DNA of 64,000 nucleotides from Sabellastarte sp. h YS-2021 (Eukaryota; Annelida; Polychaeta; Sabellida; Sabellidae). Shown here in pieces: positions 9,658 through 63,658 of the stretch. Under the pieces are notes generated by a model. That model was given only the letters and a program-made list of their open reading frames with translations. It had not been told where the DNA came from and made no database searches. The stretch is taken from NCBI GenBank assembly GCA_964017235.1, contig OZ024927.1, positions 26,369,160 through 26,433,159 on the forward strand, written 5' to 3'. The position numbers and the translations under genes were made by a program. Positions within the stretch are counted from its first letter, which is position 1. The number at the start of each line of letters is the position of its first letter.

Positions 9658-9803
9658 GTACCATGGCCTTCATGTTTGAGTCGTCCCTGAGCATGGCAGT
9701 GACTGAGTGGGGACTGAAGACTTGCCGCAAGGTGGATGATAATTACTACAAGTGCTGGCAAGGCCTGAAGAAACACTTCGACCCAAACTGGAAGCCTGAG
9801 TAA
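9658..9803 (+). CDS. HGD: homogentisate 1,2-dioxygenase, last coding exon
   Basis: HGD opens the aromatic ring of homogentisate with O2 to give maleylacetoacetate in cytosolic phenylalanine/tyrosine breakdown. This exon follows a TTTTGTAG acceptor. Its first two bases complete a Gly codon split by the intron, giving a reading of (G)[19 protein letters not shown] and so on to FDPNWKPE, then TAA. From memory of the human protein, [20 protein letters not shown] through ENYHKCWEPLKSHF is the C-terminal exon, so identity and phase fit well and 47 residues are encoded here. Earlier exons are not in the window, so the last intron is at least 9.6 kb and is filled with transposable elements. GAGTAAGT could also be read as a splice donor, but the length matches the family end, so I take TAA as the stop. 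Confidence 0.93.
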
Positions 9804-9853
9804 GTTGCATACACATTGCATGTGAAGGCCTACAGTCCAGCTTTAGTCCAAAT

Positions 9854-11572
9854 TAAGCGTCCTGTTAGGGACGCTTGTTTGTATACGGGAGAAGCAACTC
9901 CGCTGGATCCACTGGATCTGATTTTCTTTTCGCAGTAGCTTGGTAGGTGTATGCAGTAGCCCTGGGAAATTTTTCTGAATGTGCTGCAATGACATTTTCA
10001 CCAATCAAAGATGTCATATGACCAAAAATGCTTTGTTTGGAAGGGCGTCCTTGTCTGAATGATAACTTACGAAGCATTTTATCTATCCACCTGAAATTTA
10101 GCAAATACCTTCCTCATATAAAGATCTCAGCGACATTAAATTTTGGCAGGGATAGGTTAAGAAATGACTGAGTATTGTTGATTAATTAAGCATTAACAAT
10201 TTTCTAAACAAGTAAACCACAAAACTGCTTGTATCTCCTTAACTGTGTGAGATAGAGTGATTTTGTCGAAATTTTCGACCCATAGGGTATCTAAACAAAC
10301 TAGTCTCTCCAATTTTCCAAAAATTTTCTCCTACCCAAAAATGGGGGTCGTATTCAATTTTCAAATTTTTGACAGAAAATGCAGAACACAAAATTGGAAA
10401 TATAGGCTCATAACGTACACATATAGAACAAAACTAGGTGATATATGAGTACTTCTTGAAACCATTTTCTTCATAAAATAAAAATTTACAAGTGGGATTT
10501 TGGCAAAATTTTTGACCCACAGGGTATCTGTGAAGACTAGCCTTTCCAAGTTTCAACATATATTTCACTTGCCAAAAATGGCGGCCATTTTGAATTTGAC
10601 TTTTTTCAAAAATGCAAAACACAAAAATGCTTGTTTCGCGAAAACCGTGTTAGATAGAGCGATTTTGACGAAATTTTTGACCAGCAAGGGTGTCACAACT
10701 GAGTAGCTGACCCAGTTTTTCAAAATTTTTTGTCTCGCCAAAATGGCGGCCATTTTAAATTTTTCGCAAAAATCCGCAAAACACCAAAATGCTTGTATCT
10801 CCAAAACCGTGCGAGATAGAGCGATTTCGGCAAAATATTTTATCCAGAGCCTATCTGTAAAGACTAGCCTTTCCAAGTTTCAACAAATATTTCACTTGCC
10901 TAAAATGGCAGCCATTTTGAATTTTCGAATTTTTTTTAAAAATGCAAAACACAAAAATGCTTGTATCTCAAAAACTGTGCTAGATAGAGCTATTTCAAAA
11001 AAATTTTGACCCACAGGGTAACTCTGCTGAGGTAGCTGACCCAATTTTCAAAAAAATTTTTGTCCCACCAAAAATGGCGGTCATTTTGATTTTTCGAATT
11101 TTTCGCAAAAATTGTAAAACGCAAAAATGCTTGTATCTCGAAAACTGTGCCAGATAGAGCTAATTCGGCAAAATTTCTTATCCACAGGGGATCTGTGAAG
11201 ACTAGCCTTTCCAAGTTTCAACGAATATTTTCACTCGCCAAAAAATGGCGGCCATTTTTAATTTGTGAATTTTTCGCAAAATTTGCAAAACACAAAAAAT
11301 GCTTGTATCTCAAAAACAGTTCGACATAGAGTAATTTTACCAAAATCTTTGACCCACAGGGGGTCTGTGAAGACTGGCCTATCCAAGTTTTAAAGAATTT
11401 TTCACTTGCCAAAAAAGACGGCCATTTGGAATTTTCAAATTTTTTTCCAAAAATGCTTGTATCTCGAAAACCGTGCTAGATAGAGCGATTTCAACGAAAT
11501 TTTTGACCCACAGGGTTAAGCTGCCATCATTTCTCCTTTTTGGGATGCTTTGTTTTGCAAGCGATCCTCTAG
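9854..11572 (+). mobile_element. hairpin-ended (HINE/pearl-like) element E1 with ~167-bp satellite core
   Basis: The 5' end is a hairpin, AAGCGTCC-TGTTAG-GGACGCTT. The 3' end has the same arm inverted (GGGATGCTTTG) and then GCGATCCTCTAG followed by TT. Between them are about six to seven tandem units of 164-174 bp marked by AAAATGGCGGCCATTTTGAA at about 10575, 10741, 10906, 11074, 11243 and 11415. It starts about 50 bp after the HGD stop codon, so it may be transcribed as part of the HGD 3' UTR. No Rep or helicase gene; non-autonomous. Confidence 0.72.
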
Positions 11573-12966
11573 TTAAGTTTTGTAAGTAGAATTTCCCTTT
11601 TAAGCAGCAATACGTATCAGATCAGTGATCTTTTACCCTCAATATTAACTGACTTATTCCAGGTAAACTTTCGTGTGAGAGAATTAAATAACTTAAAACC
11701 TAATGAAGGTCAAATTGAATATAATTCATTGCACTATTTTTTGTCATTCAAAGCAGTGCACAACAAAATAATAGTTGGAAGTAATCTAAGCATGGATCAT
11801 ATTTTGGCAAATTATGGTCATTTGTGTTTAGTGTGAAATTATTTTGAAAGTATTTGCATGTTCATTTTCATATATATTATCTAATTTGTATATTTATGCA
11901 CATGTTTATTTGGAGTGCGTTATTCATTTAAATAAAATATTAATCTATTAAGCTTGTTATCGTTGCAACTTTTGTAAGGTCAGATTTTGCACACATTCAA
12001 CTTGTACAAGTCAACTTATTCAAAATAAAACATGTACAGCCTTGCGTACTCTGCAAGTTGTGCTAGTTTTTCGTGCAAGTTGAAACTCATACAGATTCTC
12101 AATTTGTTCAAACTTCCTTCTGTACTTGCAGTATATTGTCCTTTGGAAAATGATGCATGGATACTTATATAATTAAAAGTTATACAACAATAAACCATGT
12201 TGAAAAGTGACTTACAACAGCTGCTTTGTTTACCAACTAGAGGTCACGTGACTCAGTGTGTTTTATTTGTTCCAAAAGTCTATCGTATTGTCCTTTGGGA
12301 CATTTATTGTATGAAGATCCTCCTTGTTTATAGAGCAGTCAATGGGTCAGCCAAAGAAGCAAAGAGTGCTAGTCCACGGAAGAAACAGAAAACAAAGTAA
12401 CTGGACTTTAAGACAAAGTATGTGCTTCTACAGGTCACTGAGTGCTTGTGTTTGTGTTTTAAGTAGTAAGGTATCAGGTGTGAGAATAGGGATGGAAGTG
12501 GGGACGAGTCAGTGGCTCCAGTATCTCAGAATCAAAAGCAATTTACTGTAGTACTGTGATGATACTTCACAATCAGCAGCTCGATTCTCAACACATATAG
12601 TTAATGGAAAATTTAAAATATTGGAAACAAACCACAAATTTGAAGAAGTTGTACATTCTTATCCAATATTTATGAACATTTGTGAATTTTTGTAGTGATT
12701 TTAGTGAACAGGACTCCCATGTTTTGGTTTCACGAGTTTTACTTCCTGTTAGTGGGCCTATTTCATTGTGGATGTACTAAAACATATCTATTTTCAGAAT
12801 CAAAATGGTTTTGCATTGGCAGGATACTGATACAAAAAATATGCTAGTGATCCATCAGTAGATTCAAGTATAATTTCACTATTGAAGGGTAATCTGGCTT
12901 TTTATATTGATCATTATTCTTGAGTATGGGGAAAATAACATAGAGCCAATTGGTGGAGGATGTTAT
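11573..12966. other. AT-rich spacer, no gene recognised
   Basis: Nothing protein-like was recognised. The stretch 12600-12670 (ATTGGAAACAAACCACAAAT) resembles repeats at 48351-48552 in an ARID2 intron, so part of this is dispersed repeat DNA. Confidence 0.5.
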
Positions 12967-14285
12967 TATGTCCACCCCACTGGGGGGTGGACATATTATT
13001 TTTGCTTTTTCCGGCGTCCGGTGTCCGGCGTCCCACTTGGTTTCCAGACATTTTAGGCAACAGTTCTTATCCTATCTTTACCAAATTTGGCATGCAGGTT
13101 TATTGGGTTAATAGCTTGTATGGAAGAAGAAAAACAAAAATAAATTAAAATGTCCTTGAGGTGTTACCCCTTCCAAGTGTGAGCTGTAAATGGAAGAAGG
13201 GTTCAAATTTTTGGGCTAAAGAAGGCATGGGGAGCCAATCAGAAGCCAGTTTACAACCAGCATGGTCATGCATACTAAATGACAGTTTAAGGTACCCTCT
13301 CAGGAATGATCTACCTGACACCAAGGTGTCATCCCGTAATTTTCAAATTTTTGCCAAAAATGACAAAACACAAATTTGTTTCTATCTCCTTAACCGTGCG
13401 AGATAGAGCAATTTCGTCAAAATTTTCGACCCACAGGGTATCTAAGCATTGTACTCTTGGCAATTAAAAAAAAATTTTCCCCTCCCCAAAAATGGCGGCC
13501 ATTTTGAATTTTCAAATTTTTGCCAAAAATGGCAAAACACAAATTTGCTTCTATCTCCTTAACCGTGCGAGATAGGGCGATTTCGTCGAAATTTTCAAGC
13601 CACAAGGTATCTAAGCAATGTACTCTTTGCAATTTCCAAAAAATTTTCCCCTCCCCAAAAATGGCGGCCATTTTGAATTTTCGAATTTTTGCCAAAAATG
13701 GCAAGACACAAATTTGCTTCTATCTCCTTAACCGTGTGAGATAAAGCGATTTCGTTGAAATTTTCGACCCACAGGGTATCTAAGAAATGTACTCTTGGCA
13801 ATTTTCAAAAAATTTTCCCCTCCCCACATATGGCGGCCATTTTGAATTTTCGAATTTTTGCCCAAAATGGAAAAACACAAATTGGCCTTAACCGTGCAAA
13901 ATAGAGTTATTTCGTTGAAATTTTTTACCCATAGGGTATCTAAGAAATGTACTCTTGGCAATTTTCAAAAAATTTTCCTTTTCCCAAAAATGGCGGCCAT
14001 TTTGAATTTTCAAATTTTTGCCAAAAATAGAAAAACAGAAATTTGCTTCTATCTTCTTAACCGTGCAAGATAGAGTGATTTCGTCCAAATTTTCGACCCA
14101 ACCAATACAAAAAGGCATGAAGCTGAAATAATTTACATGTACACTAATAAATATTTAAGCATCATTGATATATTTTACAAATGAAACAGGGTCTTGTAAC
14201 ACTAGTGTACAATTTTGCCAAAAGGTTCATGGGGTGGACATTACACATGATAATGTGTGTTCTTCTATGCTATCCTCTTTCTATT
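12967..14285 (+). mobile_element. hairpin-ended (HINE/pearl-like) element F with ~169-bp satellite core
   Basis: The 5' end is a perfect 12-bp hairpin, TATGTCCACCCC with a 5-base loop and GGGGTGGACATA (12967-12995). The arm recurs once near the 3' end as GGGGTGGACAT (14231-14241), followed at once by a second hairpin ACACAT-GATA-ATGTGT (14243-14258). The core has about five units around GGCGGCCATTTTGAATTTTC, spaced 169, 169 and 160 bp, clearly homologous to the core of E1 although the ends are unrelated. The exact 3' limit is uncertain. Confidence 0.65.
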
Positions 14286-14583
14286 CGTATGTCACAGCTA
14301 CTATCAACAGGGCGTCCTATTTCTAGTTTTTTTTCAATCTTTTCTGGCGATGACATTTTACAACATATTTCATAATGGTTACCGGTATTTACATTGATTG
14401 TCCACTACTGTCTTTGAATAATGACAACAGTAAATCCATATTTACCCAAAAGTATTTGTTTATGAAAAATCAGCTGTAAAGTATTTCTATTTTATTCTAG
14501 ACTTTTATAGTGCTTAATCTCTGCCAAGGCAGATTCTAAGTTGCAACACCAGAAACCAATTCAGTAATCATTCTTCCATAGAC

Positions 14584-14592: not shown

Positions 14593-15094
14593 AGTGCTGG
14601 GACGAGTTGACTGAAACTTGAGTTGTAACTCGATGGGCGATAGTTAGGGGTAACATCAATCTGCGTAAGTGAAACTCAAGTTTTTGAAAACGTCAATTTT
14701 ATTGCGTTAATACATCCTATCCAATGGACAATTGCTTTACCGGTCGGCGCGACCGGTCCCGCCAAACGTCAGAAAAAGACGTCCTGTAAAACTACCAGCA
14801 GGACCGGTCACAGAGTGTGCATTCGCCAGGTGGCGCAAGGTATACTACTGGGACGAGTTGACTGAAACTTGAGTTGTAACTCGATGGGCGATAATTAGGG
14901 GTAACATCAATCTGCGTAAGTGAAACTCAAGTTTTTGAAAACGTCAATTTTATTGCGTTAATACATCCTATCCAATGGACAATTGCTTTACCGGTCGGCG
15001 CGACCGGTCCCGCCAAACGTCAGAAAAAGACGTCCTGTAAAACTACCAGCAGGACCGGTCACAGAGTGTGCATTCGCCAGGTGGCGCAAGGTAT
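14593..15094. repeat. 251-bp tandem duplication across the MITE/DIRS junction
   Basis: 14593-14843 is repeated head to tail as 14844-15094 with an offset of exactly 251 bp and only a few differences. Each unit carries about 100 bp of MITE end plus about 147 bp of the left terminal repeat of DIRS copy D2. The duplication must therefore be later than the D2 insertion, and it looks recent. Confidence 0.9.
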
Positions 15095-24281: not shown

Positions 24282-24656
24282 TTTGTCTGTTTGTTGGGTG
24301 AGAAAGTTGTGTTTGTCTGTTTGTCCGTCTGAACAAGTTATGTTTGGCATGGGGGTTGTCTGTTTGTCCGTCTGAACAAGTTATGTTTGGCATGGGGTTT
24401 GTCTGTTCGTCTGAACAAGTTATGTTTGGCATGGGGGTTGTCTGTTTGCCCGTCTGAACAAGTTATGTTTGGCATGGGGTTTGTCTGTTTGTCCGTCTGA
24501 ACAAGTTATGTTTGGCATGGGGGTTGTCTGTTTGTCCGTCTGAACAAGTTATGTTTGGCATGGGGGTTGTCTGTTTGTCCGTCTGAACAAGTTATGTTTG
24601 GCATGGGGTTTGTCTGTTTGTCAGTCTGTACAAGTTATGTTTGGCATGGGGTTCGT
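24282..24656. repeat. 43-bp minisatellite inside the Harbinger element
   Basis: About eight to nine near-identical head-to-tail units around GTTATGTTTGGCATGGGG followed by TTGTCTGTTTGTCCGTCTGA. They lie between the 3' ends of the two convergent Harbinger genes. High unit identity indicates recent expansion. Confidence 0.9.
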
Positions 24657-24703
24657 CCGTCTGTAGCAAACATAGCTGATTAATTGTTTTTGGAATAATT
24701 GGT

Positions 24704-47600: not shown

Positions 47601-50600
47601 ATTCACCTGAACATTGGAAATGGGTCCCGGGGTATTTGGCTGTTGTGGAGTTTGTATCACACTTTCTGCCTGCATATTCGTGCTGTTCTGCCGACTAATG
47701 TCCATTGTGTTTATGATCTGATGACCCACTTTTGCCAATGGATTTTGTTGCTGTGTCCCTCCTGCCGAACCCTGAGGTTGAACCTGGGGAATCACTCCTG
47801 CATTATACTGGTTTCCTTTCTGCTGGATATTCTGGAATCCAGTCTGGTGGTGCTGATGCTGTATGTTCCCAAGATATGCTGCATTCGGGATGGGTATACT
47901 TGGTAGACTTGACCCTTGTGGTGTTGCTGTAACAACCGGTTGTTGAACCTTCATTGCTGCGTTGTTTCCTGCTGGATTCAACATGCCTGTAGATGGGACT
48001 GGCAGTTGCTGCAAATGTGGCGATAATGGCGGAGTCTGTATTGAAATGGGAGGTGTGCTTCTGTCTGTATCCAGCTTGTTCAATAGTGCCTGCAAATGTA
48101 AAGAAATATTTACAGTTTGGCACTATGTTTTATTTCAGGTTGGTTTGCCTCATTTAACTATCTTTTAGCGAAACTTTTTCAATATGACCATGGAGTACTG
48201 GTTCTTGCATTGCAGCTATAGTGTACCTTACACAAGGAATGGGTTGGTAGGCCAGGTATCTTGGTATTGACAGCATTTTACTGAAATACCGTGAAAAGAT
48301 TTTCCAACCACCACTTTGCGTGTCAACAGATATAGTTTAAGAGTTAAAATATTGGAAACATATCCCAAATCTTAAGAAATTATAAGCTTTTATCCCATAC
48401 TTTCACATATTTACAGACTTTTATTGCGATTATGTTGAGCCAAATTACCATTTTTGGGTTATGACACATTATAACCTCAATCTCACTTGTCAACTCATAT
48501 ATTTCCAAGGAAAACTTAACATGTTCAAAACAAACCAGAAATCTGAAGAAATTGCAAATGTTTATCCCATATTTTGTGCATCCATGTTTGGTTGGGGTGT
48601 ACTAAAAACGCGAGAGTCCTGGCATTAGAACAATTTAATGCAGGCTGTATACCTACTATAATCATATGGTTATGGGTACACATTTTTTATACCAACCCAC
48701 CCCTACTGTACACCAGAAGACAATTCTAAAATATTTTTGCATACAGTTATAACAAGCAATCAGTGCCCGTGAACAGGTGCTGTGTCAGCTGTGTGTTTTG
48801 AGTTTCAGAGTAGAAGTGACAGAAGAAAAGGACACAAAAGTTGTGCCCTGGAAATGGTGTTCCGAAGGAAAGTAAGAAGGTAACTGTTCAGATGTAAAAA
48901 GTATGTTAAAAGTCACTATGTTATAGCTGACCCCAAAATAGGTGAATCTCATACTGAAACTAAACTAGATTGGGCCAACTCGGCGCCAACATATCCCCAG
49001 ACAGGTCATCACTCACGCCACAGGTTTTGATCGGAAATTTTTTAAAACATAATTACTCATTATTATATGAACTTCAGCACATCAATCTACTCTGTTTATA
49101 TCTCCCCAAGGAAGATGGTGTATCCCCAGACGCCGAATACATAACTCAAATTATATTTTCAATCTTCCTGCAATGATAACTCTAAACCTATTTTCAAAGT
49201 ATTTAAATGATTGATGATTGAATGTCCATTCTAAAATAATAATCCCAAAAGAGCATATCTGTTTCTATATTTGTTGACAAATAAAATATTATTTTTAACT
49301 CAACTCATCATATTTTTCAATCTTCCTTCAAAGTATTTAAATGATTGATGATTCAATGTCCATTCTAAAATTCATAATCCCAAAAGCGCATATCTGTTTC
49401 TATATTTGTTCACAAATAAAATATTATTTAAAAAAAAATTGTTTATATTATTATTTTATTATATTATTTTTAGAATTTGCAAATTGTTTTCAGTTATTCA
49501 TTTCCTCTATACCTATATATGTGGTCCATATATATGCAACCTAAATATGTGACACAATCTCAGTTCTGACTCCCCTTTGTGTTATATGTAATGAAGCCCA
49601 CCACCTCCCACCCCCACCCCTCTCCCCTTCTCCACACCTCTCTCACTATTACACAAGATCTGCAACCCCATTGAGTTCTTTGTTTCTCATCTGATATCAT
49701 TAAATACCATTGTTTATTTAGTGTCACTCAATATAGCTGGAGGTCCCAGAGGTGGGTGGGGGGAATCCGGGTGGGGGATGTGGGTTGAGCATAAATGGTA
49801 AACAAACAATCTATATAAAAGGGGTACTCAAATACAAAAAGAATTGAGAATTTTAAGTATGTGATTATCAACTGAAATGAGTTCATAACTGTAGGAGCTG
49901 TGCCAAAATTAACTGAGGCAAGTTGAATAAAACTGGGCTAGTTGAGGGTTAAAAATCCCCTAGTTTTACTACATAAGGATATAATTTCATTAATATTGGG
50001 ACTTAAAGCTCAATTAAAGTGTCCATTTTGTCTACTTGAATATGTTTAACCAGTTTCATTTTAAAAAGTGAAAAACTCAGCAAGCAGAGGTATAACACAC
50101 AAAAATAAGTTCTTAAAAGACTAAGATAGCCATAACATTATTAATATTCAAAATTTAAATAGACAGGCATTTCCTTTTAAAAATTCAAAGATTTCAGCTC
50201 TATACCCCACATCGTTTGACAGTTACTGGGCTTTAAAGTGGCATAATATCCATAAATTGGGTTTCTGTGGGCATTTTACAATTGTTAAAGAGACCTTAGC
50301 AATTAAACTACAGATCTGAAACTTTTTGGGGGACATACATAACAAACAAAAATTATATATAATACAGTTTAAGACTGGTCACACTAAGCATTTCCAAATA
50401 ACAGGGCAAAATACGGAAAAAATGTCAAAAAAGGCACTTGGGCGAGTGTCTATGGCCCTCATACACAGGTTAAATGTCTACTAAAAACCTTGATTTTCGG
50501 CATATGTAAAAAGGACATAATAATGCATTTCCAGATGGGATTTCAGCTCCATCAATCACATAGTTTAACAGTTACAGGGCTTAAAGGTGGTAAAAAGTCC

Positions 50601-53600
50601 AAATATTGGGTCATTGTGGGCCTTTTAGAGATCTCGATGTGGCTTTCAAATTAAAGCTTCAGACTTAAAATTTGTTACATACTAAGATTACACATAGAAT
50701 ATGTATCTAATAAAGTTTGAAACTTCTCAGACTTACCATTTCCAAGTTACAGAGCAAAATATGTGAAAAATGTCTTAAAAGGGTCACTCAGGTGGGTGTT
50801 TAAGGTCCTCATACACAGGTTAAATGTCTACTTGAAGCCTTGATTTTTGGCACATGTGAAAAGAACATAATAATGTATTCCCAGATGAGATTTCAGCTCT
50901 ATCAGTCGCATAGTTTAACAGTCACAGGCCTTAAAATTGGCAAAAAGTCCAAATATTGGGTCTTTATGGGGCCTTCTAGAGACCTAAATGTAGCATTCAA
51001 ATTAAAGCTTCAGACTTAAAATTTGTCACATACTAAGATTACACATAGAATATGCATCTAATACAGTCTGAAACTTCTTAGACTTACCATTTCCAAGTTA
51101 CAGGGAAAAATATGTGAAAAATGTCTAAAAATGGTCACTCGGGTGGGGATTTATGGTCCTCATACACAGGTTAAATGTCTTCTTAAAGCCTTAATTTTTG
51201 GCACATATAAAAATAACATACTAATATCTTCTCAGATAGGATTTGAGCTCTATCAGTCACATAGTTTGACAGTCACAGGGCTTAAAAGTAGCAAAAAGTC
51301 CAAATATTGGGTCTTTGGGAGCCTTTTAGAGACCTCAATTTGACCTTCAAAATTAAAGCTTCAGACTTAAAATCTGTTACATACTAAGATTACACACAGA
51401 ATATATATCTAATACAGTTTGAAACTTCTCAGACTTACCATTTCCAAGTTACAGGGAAAAAGATGTGAAAAATGTCTTATAAGGGTCACTCGGGTGGGTG
51501 TTTATGGTCCTGATACACAGGTTAACTGTCTATTAAAGGCCTAAATGTTGGGGCACATATAAGAAAACACATAGATATATTCCCAGATGATATTTAACTT
51601 AGATGAGAGACATAGTTTGAAAGCTACAGTGCTTGAAAGTGGCAAAAAGTGCATAAATTGGGTCTCTGTGGGCACTTTTGAGACCTTAAGTCGACCCCTT
51701 TGGGTAAACCTACAGCCCTAAAATTTTCTACAGACAAGGATTACATATCAAAGTTATACCTAGCGCAGTTTGAGACTCATCAGAATTATCACTTCCAAAT
51801 TATAGGGCAAAATATGTGTAAAGTATAGCAAAAAATCCCTAAGTGGGGGTATTTATGGGCCTCAAACACAATTTTCTCCTCAACTTAAAGTCATGATTTT
51901 CGGCACATGTACTAAGAACATATTAATGTGTTGTCAGGTAAAATTTCAGCCAGCTGAGCATCATAGTTTGTGACCTACAGGGCTCTAAGTGGCCAAAAGT
52001 GCAATTTCTGACCTTAAGGTGGCCATAAGTTCTTTTTTACTGGGAGTTTAAGGTCACCTTAAAATAAGGATCTTCCTTTGGGCACCCTTAACATGTGTAC
52101 CAAGTTTGAAAAAAAAATATTAATTTGTTTTTGAGTTATCGCGTCCACAAGGAAATTTCTACGGCGGCGGCGGCGGCGCGACGGACCTGAATCCAATATA
52201 TCCCCGACTTTCGTCTGGGGATATAATAATCTAAATGCAATAGTTTTCAAGTTATACGTGACTTACTCAACCGTGATAACCTAAAATTAGCTATTACTCA
52301 GCTATGCCATGAGCTACTGGTCTGAAATTTTACTATGTTATAGCTGACCCAAAAGTAGCTGAATAACATATTTACACAAAATTCTCTAAATGCAATAGTT
52401 TTCAAGTTACAAGTGATTTTACTCATGATGGAAGTTACTGAAAAGTCCAAAAGTAGCTATTGAGATACACACCCAAGTTACTCACCATGTTGTAACTATG
52501 GAAAAAGTAGCTGAATAACATATTTTAACAAAATGCTCTAAATGCAATACTTTTCAAGTTATAATTGATTTAGTGCATGATTTCATTAATTTTAATGCAT
52601 TAAAAATTATTTAGAAAATTCACAAAAAAATAATTAAGAAAGATCCAGGTCTGACACTCACACAAGAGAATCTACTTGTGACCTAGTACATATGTGCAAG
52701 ATATTAGAGAAATCTCTGCAATAGTCACTGAGAAAATTGTGATAAAGTGTTAAAATTTTCATACTTAGGGTGGGGGGTACCTCACTTATAATGGCTCTAG
52801 CAAACAGACGAACAAACAGATCTGCATGCCTTGAACAGTTTTTCATGCTAGGTAGATAAGCTATCTTTTAAAAAAACAGCATGTCTCTGGGCCTTGTAGT
52901 TTCAGAGAAGTCGCTCACGCGTATGCGTACGTCCACACGGCAGAGTGATGCCATAATGTCAGCTGACTGACAAGTCAGCTGACATAACAAGAGAGTATAG
53001 CTGTACAACTCCACAGAGAATTTTTCAAACGAAATTTTCATTGATGCACAATTGTTTCTTGACAGAAATAAATTCAATGCATGTAAATCTAGATTCACCA
53101 ACATATACCACATATTTTTGAGAGAAATCGCACTCTAAAAAAAAGGGTAAAGGGTCAGAATTAGACCCGATGACTTACATGTTGTAACATAGGTGCCAGC
53201 TGGCTTTGACTTGTCAGTGTCAGTGACTGAGGGGTGGGTAGTTTTGCCGTGTTTTGTCCACCAGACTGCACTGTTGTAGTTGCCGTCTTCTGCATCCCAA
53301 GTGGGGTGTTCAGTGGTAGAGGCTTGGTGGTACCAGGATTTTGGTCTGTAGCCTTACTGGTGGCAACGGCCAAAGGAGATAAAGGAGTGGGTGGCCTCGG
53401 GATGGAAAACTGCTTGGCTGGACCACCTGAAATTGTGAGATTCTCAGTAGTAATAAGACCTCTTTTCAGATAGAATATTGTTAAAAATAAACCTTTTTTA
53501 TATTTATCATAGAATGCCAATACCATTTTGAAGAGTAATATTACAAAAAAAAAAAAAAAAATTTTAGCTTGATCTGCCTCATTTTAAGCTTTTCTAAATC

Positions 53601-56600: not shown

Positions 56601-59600
56601 ATTCATATTTATCATTACTGACACAGTGTCTTAATGATCATCGTTATGTTTAAAGTTTGAAGTCTCTACCAATTCGGAGTGTGTAGGCTATGATAGTTAT
56701 ATCTTGTATTTTTATGGTCCTATTAAACTTAAATGTTGTACTCTACTTACATACTGCCCTGCTGACGCTTGCTATGTTTGTTGTTGAAGTCTCCCCCAGT
56801 TCAGAGAGCTGGTATAGGCATTCCAGTGTGTAGACTATGAGCTGAATGTCATGCACTGTGAGGTAGGAGATAATTCTGGAGTAGATGTCATGAGGCAGGA
56901 GTTCACATAATGCCTCTTCATTGCTCTCCTTCTGACAGAGTTTACTCAGCATATCCAGGCCTAAAAAACACGATTAATCGCAAAAGTCAACACTTGACAC
57001 TCACTGTTATAAAAATTTGCATATTACAATACAGAATAATCATAAACTTCTACAATATTGCTCAAGGTTCAAACAATTACCATAAACTTCCCAAAAATAT
57101 TTTCATTCAAATTTTAACAAACACCTTAATTACATATTAAATAGCCTCCACAGCATGTCCAAGTTATTTATTCCAAATTATTTTCACAGAATTTATCTGC
57201 GGCAACATTTTGGAAATTTATGGCATACAAAGAATACATGCTTCACAGAGATTTTTCCTCTTTCTGAATACGCCTATAAAAACATTGTACTGTGTATTTA
57301 TACACAGTGCAAGATCTGTTTGCTACTGGACTCAAAGTGCTATTTTGATCAATTTTGACTGCACAACTACAGCCCAAGCTCTCAAGCAACATGCATTCCC
57401 CTAAATTAAGGGCACAGGAGTCTCCGGTATGATCATCAGGTTCTTTAACCTACCACTGCGGATAGGACCCAATGACAGAGGACTGCCATTTGGTCATCCA
57501 AGCCAATATGTATCTGCCTGTACCTGGGATCGAACCAATGTCATCTGTGTTCCCAAGAAGAGTGTGCTACCCACTAGACCACAGTGACAGATGGTTAGTT
57601 TCACATTTGTGGAAGTATATCACACTATCATATGTCACAATTTTATACAAAAAAACCCCCCAAAAACATCAGCTTTATGTTTTTCCAGTACCATGTATAG
57701 GTTGGATAACAAAGTTCTGCCAGCTTACCTGTAACAATTTCAAATTTGTCTGCAGATTTTAAGCACTTGGACAGTGTTGTTATAACATGGGGAGTCGTAA
57801 AGCTGTCTCGAACCTTCAATTCCATCTGAAATAGTGTAAAATTATACTTAAGGTTACTAAATTCTCAATAATGAACATTGCAAAAATATAACTTGTACTT
57901 AAACATCTGTTACGTTTTTCTTTTGAAACTATTTATTTATTATAGTCATACCTTCTTACTCAACAATGTAGATTTGCTGCTACATTTATAATTCTCTCAA
58001 AAAATATTTTTTAATCTTTTTCTTGCAAGTATCTACAATAAACTTGATAAACATAAGGTACACATACCTAATAATTAAAGTTAATGCAAAACTTCCAAGG
58101 TCACCTATATTTTAACAAATCTTTCTCCATATATAAACTAGAGGATCGTTCGCAAAAAAAAAGGATAATGTTTTTGCATAGCAAAAACAAAGCGTCCCGA
58201 AAAGGATATAAAGGTGAGTGCTAAAGTATTAAGGAAATGCTTCGTTTCTAGCCTTATACTGTTGTGGCAACCAAAGTCAGCGCAGTCTGCTCTAGCACGG
58301 TTTTCAAGATATAAGCATTTTTGTGTTTTGCAAAAAATTCGAAAATTCAAAATGTCAGCTATATTTGGCGAGACAAAAATATTTTGAAAATTGGCATGGC
58401 TACTCTGCAGAGATACCCAGCAGGTCAAAAATTTTGTTGAGTTCGCTCCATCTAGCACGGTTTTCGAGATATAAGCATTTTTGTGTTTTGCAAGAACTTT
58501 GAAAATTCAAAATGGCCATCATTTTTGGGGAGACAAAAATTTTTGACAAGACTACTGCCGCGGTGTGTATCTCATCGAGCATTAAAGGAGAAGAAATAGC
58601 TTTTCCGAGATATTCACAATTTTTCATTTTCGTGTGTGAAAGCTCTTCCAAAAGTAGGTGAATGAGTTATTTGAGAAAAATTGGCTATCTGCAATACTAT
58701 TAAGAGATAATTCACATTTACCCATTTTGAGTAGGTGAGTAATTACCTACGGGTCTGGAACTTCACCAAGTGAAAGTTCTCCCAAAAGTAGATGAATGAG
58801 TTATTTGATAAAAATTGGGTATCCGCAATACTTTTAGAGATAATTCGCATTTACTCATTTTGAGTAGGTGAACTAGATTGGGCCAACTCGGCGCCAACAT
58901 ATCCCCAGACAGGTCATCACTCACGCCACAGGTTTTAATCGGGAATTTTTTAAAACATAATTACCCATTATTATATGAACTTCAGCACATCAATCTACTC
59001 TGTTTATATCTCCCCAAGGAAGATGGTGTATCCCCAGACGTCGAATACATAACTCAAATTATATTTTCAATCTTCCTGCAATGATAACTCTAAACCTATT
59101 TTCAAAGTATTTAAATGATTGATGATTGAATGTCCATTCTAAAATAATAATCCCAAAAGAGCATATCTGTTTCTATATTTGTTGACAAATAAAATATTAT
59201 TTTTAACTCAACTCATCATATTTTTCAATCTTCCTTCAAAGTATTTAAATGATTGATGATTCAATGTCCATTCTAAAATTCATAATCCCAAAAGCGCATA
59301 TCTGTTTCTATATTTGTTCACAAATAAAATATTATTTTAAAAAAAATTATTTATATTATTATTTTATTATATTATTTTTAGAATTTGCAAATTGTTTTCA
59401 GTTATTCATTTCCTCTATACCTATATATGTGGTCCATATATATGCAACCTAAATATGTGACACAATCTCAGTTCTGACTCCCCTTTGTGTTATATGTAAT
59501 GAAGCCCACCACCTCCCACCCCCACCCCTCTCCCCTTCTCCACACCTCTCTCACTATTACACAAGATCTGCAACCCCATTGAGTTCTTTGTTTCTCATCT

Positions 59601-62600
59601 GATATCATTAAATACCTTTGTTTATTTAGTGTCACTCAATATAGCTGGAGGTCCCAGAGGTGGGTGGGGGATGTGGGTTGAGCATAAATGGTAAACAAAC
59701 AATCTATATAAAAGGGGTACTCAAATACAAAAAGAATTGAGAATTTTAAGTATGTGATTATCAACTGAAATGAGTTCATAACTGTAGGAGCTGTGCCAAA
59801 ATTAACTGCGGCAAGTTGAATAAAACTGGGCTAGTTGAGGGTTAAAAATCCCCTAGTTTTACTACATAAGGATATAATTTCATTAATATTGGGACTTAAA
59901 GCTCACTTAAAGTGTCCATTTTGTCTACTTGAATATGTTTAACCAGTTTCATTTTAAAAAGTGAAAAACTCAGCAAGCAGAGGTATAACACACAAAAATA
60001 AGTTCTTAAAAGACTAAGATAGCCATAACATTATTAATATTCAAAATTTAAATAGACAGGCATTTCCTTTTAAAAATTCAAAGATTTCAGCTCTATAACC
60101 CACATAGTTTGACAGTTACTGGGCTTTAAAGTGGCATAATATCCATAAATTGGGTTTCTGTGGGCATTTTACAATTGTTAAAGAGACCTTAGCAATTTTA
60201 AACTACAGATCTGAAACTTTTTGGGGGACATACATAACAAACAAAAATTATATATAATACAGTTTAAGACTTGTCACACTAAGCATTTCCAAATAACAGG
60301 GCAAAATACGGAAAAAATGTCAAAAAAGGCACTTGGGCGAGTGTCTATGGCCCTCATACACAGGTTAAATGTCTACTAAAAACCTTGATTTTCGGCATAT
60401 GTAAAAAGGACATAATAATGCATTCCCAGATGGGATTTCAGCTCCATCAATCACATAGTTTAACAGTTACAGGGCTTAAAGGTGGTAAAAAGTCCAAATA
60501 TTGGGTCATTGTGGGCCTTTTAGAGATCTCGATGTGGCTTTCAAATTAAAGCTTCAGACTTAAAATTTGTTACATACTAAGATTACACATAGAATATGTA
60601 TCTAATAAAGTTTGAAACTTCTCAGACTTACCATTTCCAAGTTACAGAGCAAAATATGTGAAAAATGTCTTAAAAGGGTCACTCAGGTGGGTGTTTAAGG
60701 TCCTCATACACAGGTTAAATGTCTACTTGAAGCCTTGATTTTTGGCACATGTAAAAAGAACATAATAATGTATTCCCAGATGAGATTTCAGCTCTATCAG
60801 TCACATAGTTTAACAGTCACAGGCCTTAAAATTGGCAAAAAGTCCAAATACTGGGTCTTTATGGGGCCTTCTAGAGACCTAAATGTGGCCTTCAACTTAA
60901 AGCTTCAGACTTAAAATTTGTCACATACTAAGATTACACATAGAATATGCATCTAATACAGTTTGAAACTTCTTAGACTTACCATTTCCAAGTTACAGGG
61001 AAAAATATGTGAAAAATGTCTAAAAATGGTCACTCGGGTGGGGATTTATGGTCCTCATACACAGGTTAAATGTCTTCTTAAAGCCTTAATTTTTGGCACA
61101 TATAAAAATAACATACTAATATCTTCTCAGATAGGATTTGAGCTCTATCAGTCACATAGTTTGACAGTCACAGGGCTTAAAAGTAGCAAAAAGTCCAAAT
61201 ATTGGGTCTTTGGGAGCCTTTTAGAGACCTCAATTTGACCTTCAAAATTAAAGCTTCAGACTTAAAATCTGTTACATACTAAGATTACACACAGAATATA
61301 TATCTAATACAGTTTGAAACTTCTCAGACTTACCATTTCCAAGTTACAGGGAAAAAGATGTGAAAAATGTCTTATAAGGGTCACTCGGGTGGGTGTTTAT
61401 GGTCCTGATACACAGGTTAACTGTCTATTAAAGGCCTAAATGTTGGGGCACATATAAGAAAACACATAGATATATTCCCAGATGATATTTAACTTAGATG
61501 AGAGACATAGTTTGAAAGCTACAGTGCTTGAAAGTGGCAAAAAGTGCATAAATTGGGTCTCTGTGGGCACTTTTGAGACCTTAAGTCGACCCCTTTGGGT
61601 AAACCTACAGCCCGAAAATTTTCTACAGACAAGGATTACATATCAAAGTTATACCTAGCGCAGTTTGAGACTCATCAGAATTATCACTTCCAAATTATAG
61701 GGCAAAATATGTGTAAAGTATAGCAAAAAATCCCTAAGTGGGGGTATTTATGGGCCTCAAACACAATTTTCTCCTCAACTTAAAGTCATGATTTTCGGCA
61801 CATGTACTAAGAACATATTAATGTGTTGTCAGGTAAAATTTCAGCCAGCTGAGCATCATAGTTTGTGACCTACAGGGCTCTAAGTGGCCAAAAGTGCAAT
61901 TTCTGACCTTAAGGTGGCCATAAGTTCTTTTTTACTGGGAGTTTAAGGTCACCTTAAAATAGGGATCTTCCTTTGGGCACCCTTAACCTGTGTACCAAGT
62001 TTGAAAAAAAAATATTAATTTGTTTTTGAGTTATCGCGTCCACAAGGAAATTTCTACGGCGGCGGCGGCGGCGGCGCGACGGACCTGAATCCAATATATC
62101 CCCGACTTTCGTCTGGGGATATAATAATTAGCTATGGGTCTGAAACTTCACCATGTGAAAGCTCTCCCAAAAGTACACGAATGAGTTATTTGATAAAAAT
62201 TGGGTATCCGCAATACTTTTACAGATAATTAGCATTTATTCATTTTGAGTAGGTGAATAATTAGCTACAGGTCTGAAACTTCACCAAGTGAAAGCTCTCC
62301 CAAAAGTAGATGAATGAGTTATTTGAGAAAAATTGGGTTTCTGCAATACTTTTAGAGATAATTCGCATTTACACATTTTGAGTAGGTGAGTAATTAGCTA
62401 TGGGTCTGAAACTTCACCATGTGAAAGCTCTTCCAAAAATAGGCGAATGAGTTATTTGAGAAAAATTGGCTATCTGCAATACTTTTAAGAGATAATTCGC
62501 CATCTAGCACAGTTTTCAAGATATTAGCATTTTTGTGTTTTGCAATTTTTGCGTAAAATTCGAAAATTCAAAATGGCCGCCATTTTTGGTGAGTCAAAAT

Positions 62601-63658
62601 TTTTTTGAAAATTGGCATGGCTACTCTGTAGAGATACCCTGCGGGCCAAAAATTTTGTCGAAAACACTTTATCTAGCACGTTTTTCGAGATATAAGCATT
62701 TTTATGTTTTGCAATTTTTGCGAAAAATTCGAAAATTCAAAATGGCCGCCATTTTTGGTGAGTCAAATTTTTTTTTTGAAAATTACTCTGCAGAGATACC
62801 CTGTGGATCAAAAATTTTGTCAAAATCGCTCTATCTAGCATGGTTTTCGAGTTATAAGCATTTTTGTGTTTTCCTTATTTGGAAAATTCATAATGATTAA
62901 TTAATCATTAATTACTTGGCCATTTCTTAACCAATCAATGCCAAAATCTAATGATTTTCAGATTTTAATAGAATGAATGTATTTGCCAAGTTTCAGGTGA
63001 ATTGATAAAATCCCTTTCAAGTTATCATCCAGACAAGCTTCCCCATCAAAAAAAGACATTTTTGGTCATGTGACCTCTCTGATTGGTTGAAATGTCACTG
63101 CAGCATATTCAAAAAAATTCCCCAAGGCTACTGCATAAACCTGCCAAATTTGAAAAGAATCCGGCTAACGGTTACAGAGTTATAAGGAAAACAAAATGCG
63201 GAGCTGGCAGCGCCTGAAGGTCTCCCATACACAAACAAGCGTCCCTTGCGGGACGCTTAAAAAGAGTTCACATAGTTAACTCAAAATGCAAAATGTAGAG
63301 TACATTTAATAAATGATATATGACAGCAGCAGGTTTCCTGGCAAAGTTTTCAAATGTAATCTCTTTCCTTGACAAACAAATATTTTACCAGAAATAGTTT
63401 TAAATTTAAGGAAGTTACATTTTAAAGGAATTCTAATTCATAATAGGTTGTAGATCAATATTGCTACATTGACAAACAAACGCATTCATGAATAGGTGGT
63501 CAAGAGTTGACTGTAAGTTGTTTAATTGACTTTTAATGCACTGTATATAATGGGAAGTACATAATGAAACACCTACCTGCAGACAGAGGTTGCCCAGGGT
63601 GTCCAGTGACAGTTGTCTAATGGAGTGATACTTGCAGTGGATTCCTAATAGCAAGAAC
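35501..63658 (-). CDS. ARID2: ARID2 (BAF200), PBAF chromatin-remodelling subunit; 13 exons, 5' exons outside window
   Basis: ARID2 is the DNA-binding subunit that defines the PBAF form of SWI/SNF in the nucleus. Exons, 5' to 3': 63577-63658, 57729-57825, 56751-56960, 56073-56327, 55548-55761, 54377-54486, 53933-54148, 53179-53426, 44431-48089, 37463-37601, 36641-36823, 36121-36212, 35501-35627. All junctions have GT donors and AG acceptors and compatible phases; the total (5,632 nt) is one base plus 1,877 codons, so 1,876 residues then TAG. Domain order matches vertebrate ARID2: helical repeats, RFX-like domain, long low-complexity region, two C2H2 fingers and a conserved tail. The ARID domain exons should lie right of the window. 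Introns are loaded with transposons, including one DIRS-like element and two copies of a 3.25-kb element. PBRM1- or ARID1-type alternatives are excluded by the RFX region and finger layout. Confidence 0.95.
36121..36212 (-). CDS. ARID2: ARID2 exon: conserved C-terminal helix
   Basis: Encodes [20 protein letters not shown] and [10 protein letters not shown], a near match to family [20 protein letters not shown]. This block is the most conserved part of the tail and confirms the gene. Confidence 0.95.
36641..36823 (-). CDS. ARID2: ARID2 exon: end of finger 2 and C-terminal linker
   Basis: Encodes [20 protein letters not shown], a Pro-rich stretch and [21 protein letters not shown]. The LQAIRR segment corresponds to LMALRRGSRN in vertebrates. 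Confidence 0.92.
37463..37601 (-). CDS. ARID2: ARID2 exon: C2H2 zinc fingers 1 (end) and 2 (start)
   Basis: Encodes [24 protein letters not shown], then [22 protein letters not shown]. Joined through the preceding codon the first finger is C-x4-C-x12-H-x4-H. The second ends across the next junction as HIQEKH, as in vertebrate CLWEGC...FITHLQDKH. Confidence 0.94.
37794..38335 (-). repeat. 3' terminal repeat, internal complementary region and G-run of D3
   Basis: Same arrangement as D2: 3' inverted terminal repeat (37794 to about 38010), internal complementary region (about 38060-38165) and a homopolymer run (C on the plus strand, 38321-38332). Confidence 0.8.
38560..39700 (-). CDS. tyrosine recombinase part of DIRS copy D3
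   Basis: The fullest recombinase in the window. Core-binding region with [20 protein letters not shown]; catalytic region with [16 protein letters not shown] (first Arg box), the [12 protein letters not shown] box and the [17 protein letters not shown] box with the tyrosine. Its open frame continues upstream across the RNase H part in a different frame, as DIRS1 elements are known to do. Fossil part. Confidence 0.85.
40020..41500 (-). CDS. reverse transcriptase/RNase H part of DIRS copy D3
   Basis: RT motifs [29 protein letters not shown] and [11 protein letters not shown]. RNase H motifs [30 protein letters not shown] and [16 protein letters not shown], and the [15 protein letters not shown] motif. 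Fossil part. Confidence 0.85.
41800..43787 (-). pseudogene. gag-like part of DIRS copy D3
   Basis: Starts [20 protein letters not shown] with the Cys/His-rich N-terminal motif, then a Lys-rich stretch, [20 protein letters not shown] and a basic tail. Matches D2 throughout. Fossil part. Confidence 0.75.
43890..44057 (-). repeat. 5' inverted terminal repeat of D3
   Basis: Reverse complement of the 3' terminal repeat, including the block with GGACAATTGCTTTACCGGTC and the GCGAATGCACACTCTGTGAC block. Confidence 0.8.
44431..48089 (-). CDS. ARID2: ARID2 giant exon (3.66 kb): Gln/Ser/Thr/Asn-rich region up to the first zinc finger
   Basis: One open frame of about 1,219 codons. Starts [20 protein letters not shown]; Gln/Asn-rich first third, a basic stretch [20 protein letters not shown], an acidic part ([17 protein letters not shown]), a Ser/Thr-rich part, then repeated Gln/Val phrases such as [20 protein letters not shown] (a short internal duplication). 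Near the end is a strong nuclear-localisation-like block, [20 protein letters not shown]. It closes with [10 protein letters not shown], the first half of a C2H2 finger. Vertebrate ARID2 also has one very large exon in this place. The absence of stops in 3.6 kb of low-complexity coding shows it is under selection. Confidence 0.95.
48340..48600. repeat. pair of ~172-bp tandem repeat units in an ARID2 intron
   Basis: The motif around TTGGAAACATATCCCAAATC TTAAGAAAT at 48352 recurs diverged at 48525-48552. A related copy is at 12600-12670. Satellite-type repeat of unknown parent. Confidence 0.5.
50140..52000. repeat. ~350-bp tandem repeat core of copy A
   Basis: Five to six diverged units. Each contains GACTTACCATTTCCAAGTTA, a GGTCACTCGGGTGGG-like block and CATAGTTTGACAGTCACAGG in the same order. 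Confidence 0.8.
52160..52180. repeat. CGG trinucleotide run in copy A (5 units)
   Basis: The matching run in copy B (about 62057-62080) has one unit more, one of the few differences between the copies. Confidence 0.7.
52290..52620. repeat. ~150-bp satellite units flanking copy A
   Basis: AAAGTAGCTGAATAACATAT with ACAAAAT.CTCTAAATGCAATA occurs at about 52353 and 52509, and a related piece precedes copy A at 48921-48950. Copy A is therefore nested within this array. Confidence 0.6.
53179..53426 (-). CDS. ARID2: ARID2 exon: Pro/Thr/Gln-rich linker
   Basis: Encodes [20 protein letters not shown] through [13 protein letters not shown]. It joins the giant exon in phase 0 to give MLQH-ALLNKLD, a short amphipathic LxxL-type stretch. 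Confidence 0.85.
53933..54148 (-). CDS. ARID2: ARID2 exon: Pro/Gln-rich linker
   Basis: Encodes [20 protein letters not shown] and on to [20 protein letters not shown]. Low complexity; placed by matching phases on both sides. Confidence 0.85.
54377..54486 (-). CDS. ARID2: ARID2 exon: second part of RFX-like domain
   Basis: Encodes [20 protein letters not shown] and [16 protein letters not shown]. This matches family VFPNHTVKRVEDSS..GVKRR, where GIKRR marks the end of the domain. Confidence 0.9.
55548..55761 (-). CDS. ARID2: ARID2 exon: first part of RFX-like DNA-binding domain
   Basis: A Pro-rich start leads to [20 protein letters not shown], then [20 protein letters not shown] and QFTTALR. 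This is the RFX-type winged-helix pattern (WL..HFE...CSVSR..MY..YL..C....R..I...GF.K.LR). Compared with vertebrates the Val-Ser-Arg recognition residues are altered (VVSQ), so DNA contacts may differ. Confidence 0.9.
56073..56327 (-). CDS. ARID2: ARID2 exon: end of helical region and Pro-rich linker
   Basis: Encodes [20 protein letters not shown] and [12 protein letters not shown], equivalent to [26 protein letters not shown]. It then becomes Pro/Thr-rich up to VPTPPPPQT. Confidence 0.93.
56751..56960 (-). CDS. ARID2: ARID2 exon: helical repeat region
   Basis: Encodes [40 protein letters not shown] and [18 protein letters not shown], matching the family stretch [32 protein letters not shown]. 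The donor is the second of two candidates (GTAAGT), chosen because only it keeps phase with the next exon. Confidence 0.93.
57395..57597 (-). mobile_element. tRNA-derived SINE
   Basis: Minus strand has an A box TGGTCTAGTGG (57581-57571) and, 35 bp on, a B box GGTTCGATCCC (57536-57526), in a tRNA-like head that has lost cloverleaf pairing elsewhere, then an unrelated body of about 130 bp. It lies in an ARID2 intron, in the same orientation as the gene. Confidence 0.72.
57729..57825 (-). CDS. ARID2: ARID2 exon: helical repeat region
   Basis: Encodes [20 protein letters not shown] and then [12 protein letters not shown], matching the family stretch that contains CLMSRDRF. Donor GTAAGC. Starts in phase 0 after a TTTCAG acceptor. 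Confidence 0.9.
58873..62123 (-). mobile_element. hairpin-ended (Helentron/HINE-like) element, copy B, 3.25 kb
   Basis: Nearly identical to copy A from end to end (a few substitutions, an 11-base length difference near the C/G-rich stretch, one extra CGG). The empty site can be read from neighbouring array units (GTGAATAATTAGCT). The insertion split it between A and T (TT on the other reading) without target duplication, as known for Helitron/Helentron-type insertion. Confidence 0.8.
62130..62500. repeat. ~133-bp tandem array within E2
   Basis: Three units on this side of copy B and about two on the other (58625-58870). Unit markers are GAAACTTCACCA and TTTTGAGTAGGTGA. Confidence 0.75.
63577..63658 (-). 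CDS. ARID2: ARID2 exon (first in window): helical repeat region
   Basis: Encodes [27 protein letters not shown] after one base that completes a split codon. It matches vertebrate [23 protein letters not shown] by memory. The following GTAGGT donor gives phase 0. Confidence 0.9.

Follow-up and report, generated by a model that had tools for sequence, protein, structure and literature searches.

Related satellite cores under different terminal hairpins in two HINE-like element families of the annelid Sabellastarte

We wanted to understand why two repetitive elements that lie close together in the genome of the annelid Sabellastarte sp. h YS-2021 have different terminal hairpins and yet carry related tandem satellite units. 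The elements, E1 (9853-11574, + strand, 1,722 bp) and F (12966-14328, + strand, 1,363 bp), lie in a stretch of 64,000 nucleotides (contig OZ024927.1, positions 26,369,160 to 26,433,159 of the forward strand; hereafter the window) and represent two families, E and F, with the anatomy of HINEs, the non-autonomous Helentrons. The initial annotation of this DNA had proposed that the ends and cores of such elements are exchangeable modules and that satellite DNA is spread as cargo of rolling-circle-type elements. We find that ends and cores are strongly linked in the present genome, and that a past exchange of cores between E and F is supported, not proven, by comparison of the units.

Results

Hairpins and satellite cores of E1 and F

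The limits of the two elements follow from a copy-to-copy comparison of ends: a common E end, GATCCTCTAGTT, is present in 16 copies and a common F end, TCCTATTTCTAGTT, in 7, and the letters beyond vary by copy. E1 thus runs from TT and its hairpin to GATCCTCTAGTT, and F ends at 14328, 43 bp beyond the position (14285) given originally; the gap between them is 1,391 bp, close to the ~1.4 kb first noted. The terminal hairpins differ, as had been stated. The hairpin of E1 (9855-9876), AAGCGTCC..GGACGCTT, consists of a 5' subterminal inverted repeat (subTIR) and its adjacent inverted repeat, and its pattern has 7,379 genomic matches (control 0); that of F (12967-12995), TATGTCCACCCC-ACTGG-GGGGTGGACATA, has 2,498 per strand (control 0), the counts on both strands being equal because the pattern reads the same on either strand.

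Tandem arrays were detected in E1 (10497-11444, period ~170) and in F (13338-14100, period 169), and the core motif, at three mismatches or fewer, occurs 14 times in the window and in none of 100 shuffles. Alignments between the E1 and F units of the window span the whole unit and show 65-75% identity; individual E and F core copies taken from elsewhere in the genome align with a score of 579, compared with a shuffled mean of 117. We conclude from these alignments that the ~168-bp satellite cores of E1 and F are homologous, in line with the original observation. The core and the modules are AT-rich, as a chance or low-complexity likeness of AT-rich repeats would have it; this explanation, to which we give practically no weight, is refuted by the shuffles, 0 of 200 of which reach the core alignment score, and is at odds with the 157,290 exact genomic copies of the core motif (control 0). 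At one motif per ~168-bp unit, the satellite makes up at least 26 Mb, or ~1.5% of the 1.786-Gb genome. A 15-letter piece of the motif had no match in a text search of published papers. The left module, the segment between hairpin and core, shows no similarity to the core (Z -1.1 to -0.3), and an origin of the core from it was rejected.

Linkage of ends and cores in the present genome

Combinations of end and core were counted genome-wide with exact left-module motifs and exact first-unit motifs (control 0 for each); the counts are lower bounds and concern the first unit only. The E left module is followed by an E-type first unit in at least 7,558 copies and by an F-type first unit in at least 365, some of which may be elements of the E-ended subfamilies Ec or Ed, carriers of F-like letters at that site. 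The F left module is followed by an F-type first unit in at least 2,436 copies, and its combination with an E-type first unit gave 0 exact matches genome-wide. We note that in Ec (L075, L076, and L080, in the last of which only the E 3' end is visible) E- and F-like letters are mixed at the diagnostic columns of the core.

The tree of core units gave a similar picture, with 0 of 107 E-ended units placed in the F clade and 78 of 82 F-ended units inside it, the other four all coming from one locus, L065. This E/F count left out 22 full units of the unassigned loci L008, L029, L055, L061, and L062, and the unit counts left out L004-L006, which overlap L003; two further loci have no unit behind their ends (L027, an E left module with no core match, and L016, behind whose F hairpin no core was scored in the stretch examined). 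Among the matches listed, an F 3' end lies within 6 kb downstream of 23/49 F left ends (wrong side, 2/49) and of 2/100 E left ends (wrong side, 3/100), one of these two pairs being the E1 and F neighbors of the window itself. Further, the phase at which the last unit stops is 114 in 6/8 F ends and 91 in 10/16 E ends, a family-specific right junction as expected from clonal spread; the start phases of the first unit overlap between E and F. Free exchange of ends and cores today is therefore not supported: the four counts, the tree, and the placement of F 3' ends point to strong linkage with scarce, one-way mixing. The survey of ends against cores for which the initial annotation had called, conducted here through the left-module motif, thus yields the 365 mixed copies in one direction and none in the other, and exchangeability is supported only for rare past events and not for the present state.

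Core trees and mosaic arrays

The core subfamilies cut across the ends. In the core tree, Fa groups with Ec (99/95), Ea with Ed (97/82), and Eb with Fb and Fc (99/89), Ec and Eb being E-ended. The F-ended Fa cores thus group with E-ended Ec and not with F-ended Fb and Fc, and the identity of the Fa consensus is 0.863 to Ec, 0.848 to Ed, 0.839 to Ea, and 0.762 to Fb. Two core classes can be told apart, one of ~168 bp (Ea, Ec, Ed, and Fa) and one of ~150 bp with a common 16-bp gap (class II; Eb, Fb, and Fc), and each is found under both E and F ends; for class II, the loci are L029 and L044 with E ends and L065 and L021 with F ends. The possibility that a core is invariably tied to a single end type, which had been named as the outcome that would speak against modularity, thus fails for the core classes, although at few loci. 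None of the informative sites favors the split that is congruent with the ends in four quartets (Ea/Ec/Fa/Fb, Ea/Eb/Fa/Fb, Ec/Eb/Fa/Fb, and Ed/Eb/Fa/Fb), and in the strongest quartet with Fb, 9 of 10 informative sites favor Ec+Fa | Eb+Fb. The subfamilies comprise few loci: two for Eb, three for Ec, one for the Fb cores (L065), one unit for Fc, and, for Ed, E1 of the window and L034.

Mixed arrays also occur within single elements. The first core unit of E1 (10203-10335), a feature absent from the initial annotation, is F-like (0.83 to the Fa consensus, score 445; 0.80 to Ec, 386; 0.76 to Ea, 358), and the three later units tested score best to Ea or Ed; the remaining units of E1 (10338-11516) have mostly E letters at the diagnostic columns and a dimer period of 338 bp. 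In L034, the two units tested score highest to Fa. The core array of F in the window (13338-14100, 169-bp units) has all 16 F diagnostic letters in its first three units. A chimeric unit, with an Fb 5' half (0.92-0.93) and an Fa 3' half (0.93-0.95), is present in L054 and L060, and its junction has 593 exact genomic copies. In L028 (C1:2291380), an E left module follows F left-module repeats immediately downstream and on the same strand, apparently an E element inserted into an F element, and in L011 two F elements succeed one another in tandem orientation with a short distance between them.

Divergence of left modules and cores

Left modules and cores were compared by strict pairwise identity, for which the shuffled baseline is 0.46; a measure lenient to gaps was dropped (shuffled baseline 0.70). 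Between Ea and four older E copies (L029, L034, L044, and E1 of the window, pooled), the left module is 0.69 identical and the core 0.68. Between Ea and Fa, the left module is 0.51 identical, close to the baseline, and the core 0.79. In local alignment, the left modules of E subfamilies match at 72-80% (scores of at least 591) and those of F subfamilies at 65-86% (scores of at least 356), and E-F pairs score 148-309, compared with 177 ± 23 (largest 264) for shuffles of one pair. By these measures, left modules and cores diverge in step within one end type; between types, left modules are near noise and cores ~0.79 identical. Outside hairpin and core, weak collinearity is seen between the left modules of E and F (best profile scores of 10.3 and 12.7 bits, shuffles 4.1 or less). 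Once 70 bp had been trimmed from the 5' side and 80 bp from the side next to the core, the signal dropped close to noise, and 9/450 pairs exceed the largest shuffle and 297 the 95th percentile. Any homology between E and F left modules would thus be weak. The original description of the ends as unrelated goes too far: the hairpins differ, but the left modules show this weak collinearity, and the extreme termini, TT at the start and CTAGTT at the end, are common to the families.

Several results weigh against an exchange of cores between the lineages. First, given the weak collinear similarity of the left modules, E and F may descend from an old common ancestor. Second, the comparison of core phylogeny with ends, which had been proposed as a check, gives the discordant groups described above but leaves congruence standing: approximately unbiased (AU) tests of a tree in which the F-ended units all form a single clade gave p values of 0.0645, 0.101, and 0.0995, in 168 columns only and with few loci in Eb, Ec, Fb, and Fc, and therefore do not reject it. 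Quartets with Fc in place of Fb have 2 and 1 ends-congruent sites versus 4 and 4 opposed, and the F clade of the unit tree has a support of only 0.62. Third, L065 holds Fb and then Fa units in one element, and the Fb/Fa chimera can therefore arise inside a single element; L063, which has a related left module, was found to be without the Fb half under the same split test. We do not accept the chimera as proof of exchange between elements, as L065 carries both unit types. Fourth, no credible hybrid with an E left and an F right end is present among the matches listed, and no enzyme was linked to E or F ends, the 24 genomic matches to Helitron_like_N (open frames of up to 2,245 amino acids) being tied to neither. 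Finally, the donor of any transferred cores could be either the other element or free satellite.

Some of these observations would be expected under plain common descent, in which one ancestor had a mixed core array, hairpins and left modules diverged fast, and the cores either evolved slowly or were sorted in another way, without any transfer. The weakly collinear left modules are also similar in length (mostly 365 bp in E and 366-386 bp in F), and the overlapping start phases of the first unit, the common TT...CTAGTT termini, the AU tests, and the composite array of L065 all agree with this explanation. We nevertheless regard it as rather unlikely: because left modules and cores are about equally paced within E and within F, slow cores fail to explain a core identity of 0.79-0.80 beside left modules near noise. 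Further, the middle parts of the left modules that are left after trimming score only slightly higher than shuffles, and the right junction phases of the two families differ.

Carriage of the satellite by E and F elements

To sample the satellite blind to its ends, we took the first 100 core matches listed, which form 24 arrays at 0.68-2.99 Mb of C1, the contig of the window. By left module or F 3' end, 9 arrays belong to E elements and 13 to F elements, and 2 (L061 and L062) have no assignment; several assignments are partial or diverged left-module matches (e.g. L001, L007, L056, L057, and L064), and L055 was assigned by its 3' end alone. Left module and core share a strand in every case in which both were scored, save in L062, whose sole left-module match is a 47-bp fragment on the opposite strand. 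No long free-standing array was seen in this sample, a single 2.3-Mb stretch examined in short extracts. The F left module of L009 and others contains two diverged units ~158 bp apart, a possible second tandem repeat.

The proposal that the satellite is spread as cargo is thus supported in structure, with 22/24 arrays inside E or F elements, a structure from which movement may be deduced. The same sample bears on independent capture, in which each family took up units of a dispersed, free-standing satellite. A filler-DNA model of this kind is in print for Helitrons (PMC7492417, as far as its available part goes), and the family-specific right junction phases agree with it, but the residence of nearly all sampled arrays in E or F elements and the want of a long free array in the sample make it improbable.

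Element anatomy and class membership

In order, the E elements consist of the subTIR AAGCGTCC, an inverted repeat, GGCTCCG repeats, the core, a 3' subTIR, the palindrome TTTTTGC/GCAAAAA, a tail, and CTAG, and the F elements of the subTIR TATGTCCACCCC, an inverted repeat, a GC-rich microsatellite-like stretch, the core, a 3' subTIR, the palindrome ACACAT/ATGTGT, a tail, and CTAG. In E1, the left module (9877-10202) matches the remaining E left modules tested at 74-90% in local alignment, the 3' subTIR GGGATGCTT (11542-11550, by direct reading) has one mismatch to the 5' inverted repeat, and comparison of copy ends places the terminus CTAGTT at 11569-11574. In F, the left module (12996-13337) includes a microsatellite-like GTCCGG stretch, and the core is followed by the 3' subTIR GGGGTGGACAT (14231-14241), by the palindrome ACACAT-GATA-ATGTGT (14243-14258, by direct reading), found in most of 100 F 3' ends among the matches listed, and by the terminus CTAGTT (14323-14328); the F 3' end pattern has 3,750 genomic matches. 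A second E-type element, E2 (58136-63260, - strand), has an Ea core, a second array of 133-bp units, and a nested element of a third family, G. The arms of the 5' subTIR and its adjacent inverted repeat are 8 bp long in E1, 9 bp in E2, and 12 bp in F, and the inverted subTIR copy near the 3' end is exact over 11 bp in F and over 9 bp in E2, with the one mismatch in E1. The palindrome after the 3' subTIR is present in F and in E2 (TTTTTGC/GCAAAAA); the E-type palindrome is missing from E1 itself. The 22 open reading frames that overlap 9853-14328 are at most 103 amino acids long (introns not considered).

TT precedes the hairpin at 34/34 E and 15/15 F 5' ends scored, and the base before TT is A at 29/34 and 15/15, respectively. 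The 3' CTAG is present in 8/8 F ends found with a search pattern that did not impose it; in 14/16 E ends, the pattern imposed it. G likewise starts with TT and ends with CTAGTT, so the hairpins differ between families and the extreme termini are common to E, F, and G. Where G is inserted in the 133-bp array of E2, the joined flanks match an uninterrupted unit in 47/49 letters, with no duplication. Joined flanks of eight elements were also used to look for empty sites, and 40 matches out of 1,260 candidates were scored. The F copy L012 accounts for 39 of the 40 (query 121-230 or 121-229, 96-97%), spanning the junction at 178/179 with 112 bases on 110 (111 on 109 in one case), a 2-base difference left unexplained. 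The E-ended copy L075 accounts for the other, which spans the junction with 121 on 121 bases at 93%; the other six joined flanks have no empty site among the 40 scored matches.

Canonical Helitrons have a 5'-TC end and a hairpin ~11 bp before a 3' CTRR, and are not known to have subTIRs. E and F were excluded from this group by their 5' TT, their subTIRs, and a palindrome that lies tens of bases away from the 3' end. Overall, we conclude that E and F have the anatomy of HINEs, with subTIRs, an inverted repeat, a palindrome, a TT target, no target duplication, and no coding capacity, and that their termini, with 5' TT, 3' CTAG, and insertion after A, are those of proto-Helentrons. Target, termini, and absence of duplication fit the Helentron/proto-Helentron group as far as it is described in the available part of PMC4067079.

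Other features of the window

The G family is HINE-like, with the hairpin TATATCCCC..GGGGATATA and core units of ~351 bp. Its two copies (48963-52226 and 58871-62124, both - strand) are 98.7% identical over 3,273 bp, and the match reaches the limits of the elements to within a few bases; judged by this identity, they would be two recent insertions, one of them nested in E2. The second tandem array of E2 lies at 62123-62497 (- strand) and continues beyond the nested G element. E1 starts 50 bp past the stop of an open frame (9663-9800) that matches the C terminus of homogentisate 1,2-dioxygenase (E 1.6e-16). A 251-bp tandem duplication with 99% matches is present at 14597-15094, and a 43-bp minisatellite of ~8 copies at 24311-24664.

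Discussion

The explanation that we favor, with a probability of about 0.55, is that E and F are HINE families with satellite cargo whose cores passed between the lineages at least once after the left modules had diverged, followed by clonal spread. E and F would be two non-autonomous rolling-circle transposon families, presumably mobilized in trans by a Helitron/Helentron Rep-helicase, whose left modules diverged almost beyond recognition. Core units would then have crossed between the lineages, most likely through recombination between homologous arrays or through nesting of elements, for which L028 may offer an example. Each resulting combination of end and core would have multiplied clonally, which is why the combinations look fixed today. 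More tentatively, the satellite superfamily could be a replicator partly independent of its carriers, both core classes having been taken up by at least two vehicles that differ in their rolling-circle ends, via recombination within arrays, so that the phylogenies of ends and cores would be uncoupled over time and tightly linked at any one time.

The basic idea is already in print (PMC7492417 and PMC12628747, in the parts available). In the Cg_HINE elements of Crassostrea gigas (Vojvoda Zeljko et al. 2020, PMC7492417), each core cluster is described as tied to one flank pair, and the groups given are those with both flanks and cores related, with flanks related and cores unrelated, and with both unrelated. 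According to the same partial source, these elements resemble E and F in their 5' subTIR, inverted repeat, microsatellite, satellite-like core (units of 138-181 bp), 3' subTIR, and palindrome, in the single orientation of the core, in T-rich targets without target duplication, and in carrying satellite as cargo; some have two consecutive arrays, as does E2. E and F differ in that related cores under unrelated hairpins fall outside the three groups, and CTAG termini are not mentioned for Cg_HINE in that part of the paper. For oyster Helitrons, a review (PMC12628747, available part) reports the same array type across different elements and different arrays within a single element, but the accessible portions of PMC12628747, PMC8268682, and PMC11136912 are without the end-by-core counts, core trees, and mosaic units given here.

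The proto-Helentron of Phytophthora infestans (Thomas et al. 2014, PMC4067079) has, like E and F, a 5' TT, a 3' CTAG, insertion between A and T, and no target duplication; it differs in being a coding element of ~14 kb, and the subTIR and palindrome anatomy of E and F is not given for it in the available text. The same text describes DINE-1/HINE elements of Drosophila and mites with subTIRs, an inverted repeat (DINE-1), a 3' stem-loop, TT targets, and central repeats, as in E and F, and does not report CTAG ends for them; this likeness is one of description and not of sequence. The bivalve pearl family, DTC84, and BIV160-Cg170 are likewise modular with ~160-bp satellite cores (PMC5139131, in part), again likened by description and not by letters. 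None of the portions of published work examined contained the end-by-core counts, the discordance of ends and cores, or the union of TT...CTAG ends and HINE anatomy.

In E and F, related satellite cores thus occur with HINE ends that differ, and genome-wide counts of end against core are at hand for this case. They point to a possible route by which a satellite may outlive and switch its transposon carrier, and the divergence of left modules relative to cores offers a way in which such transfers could be ordered in time.

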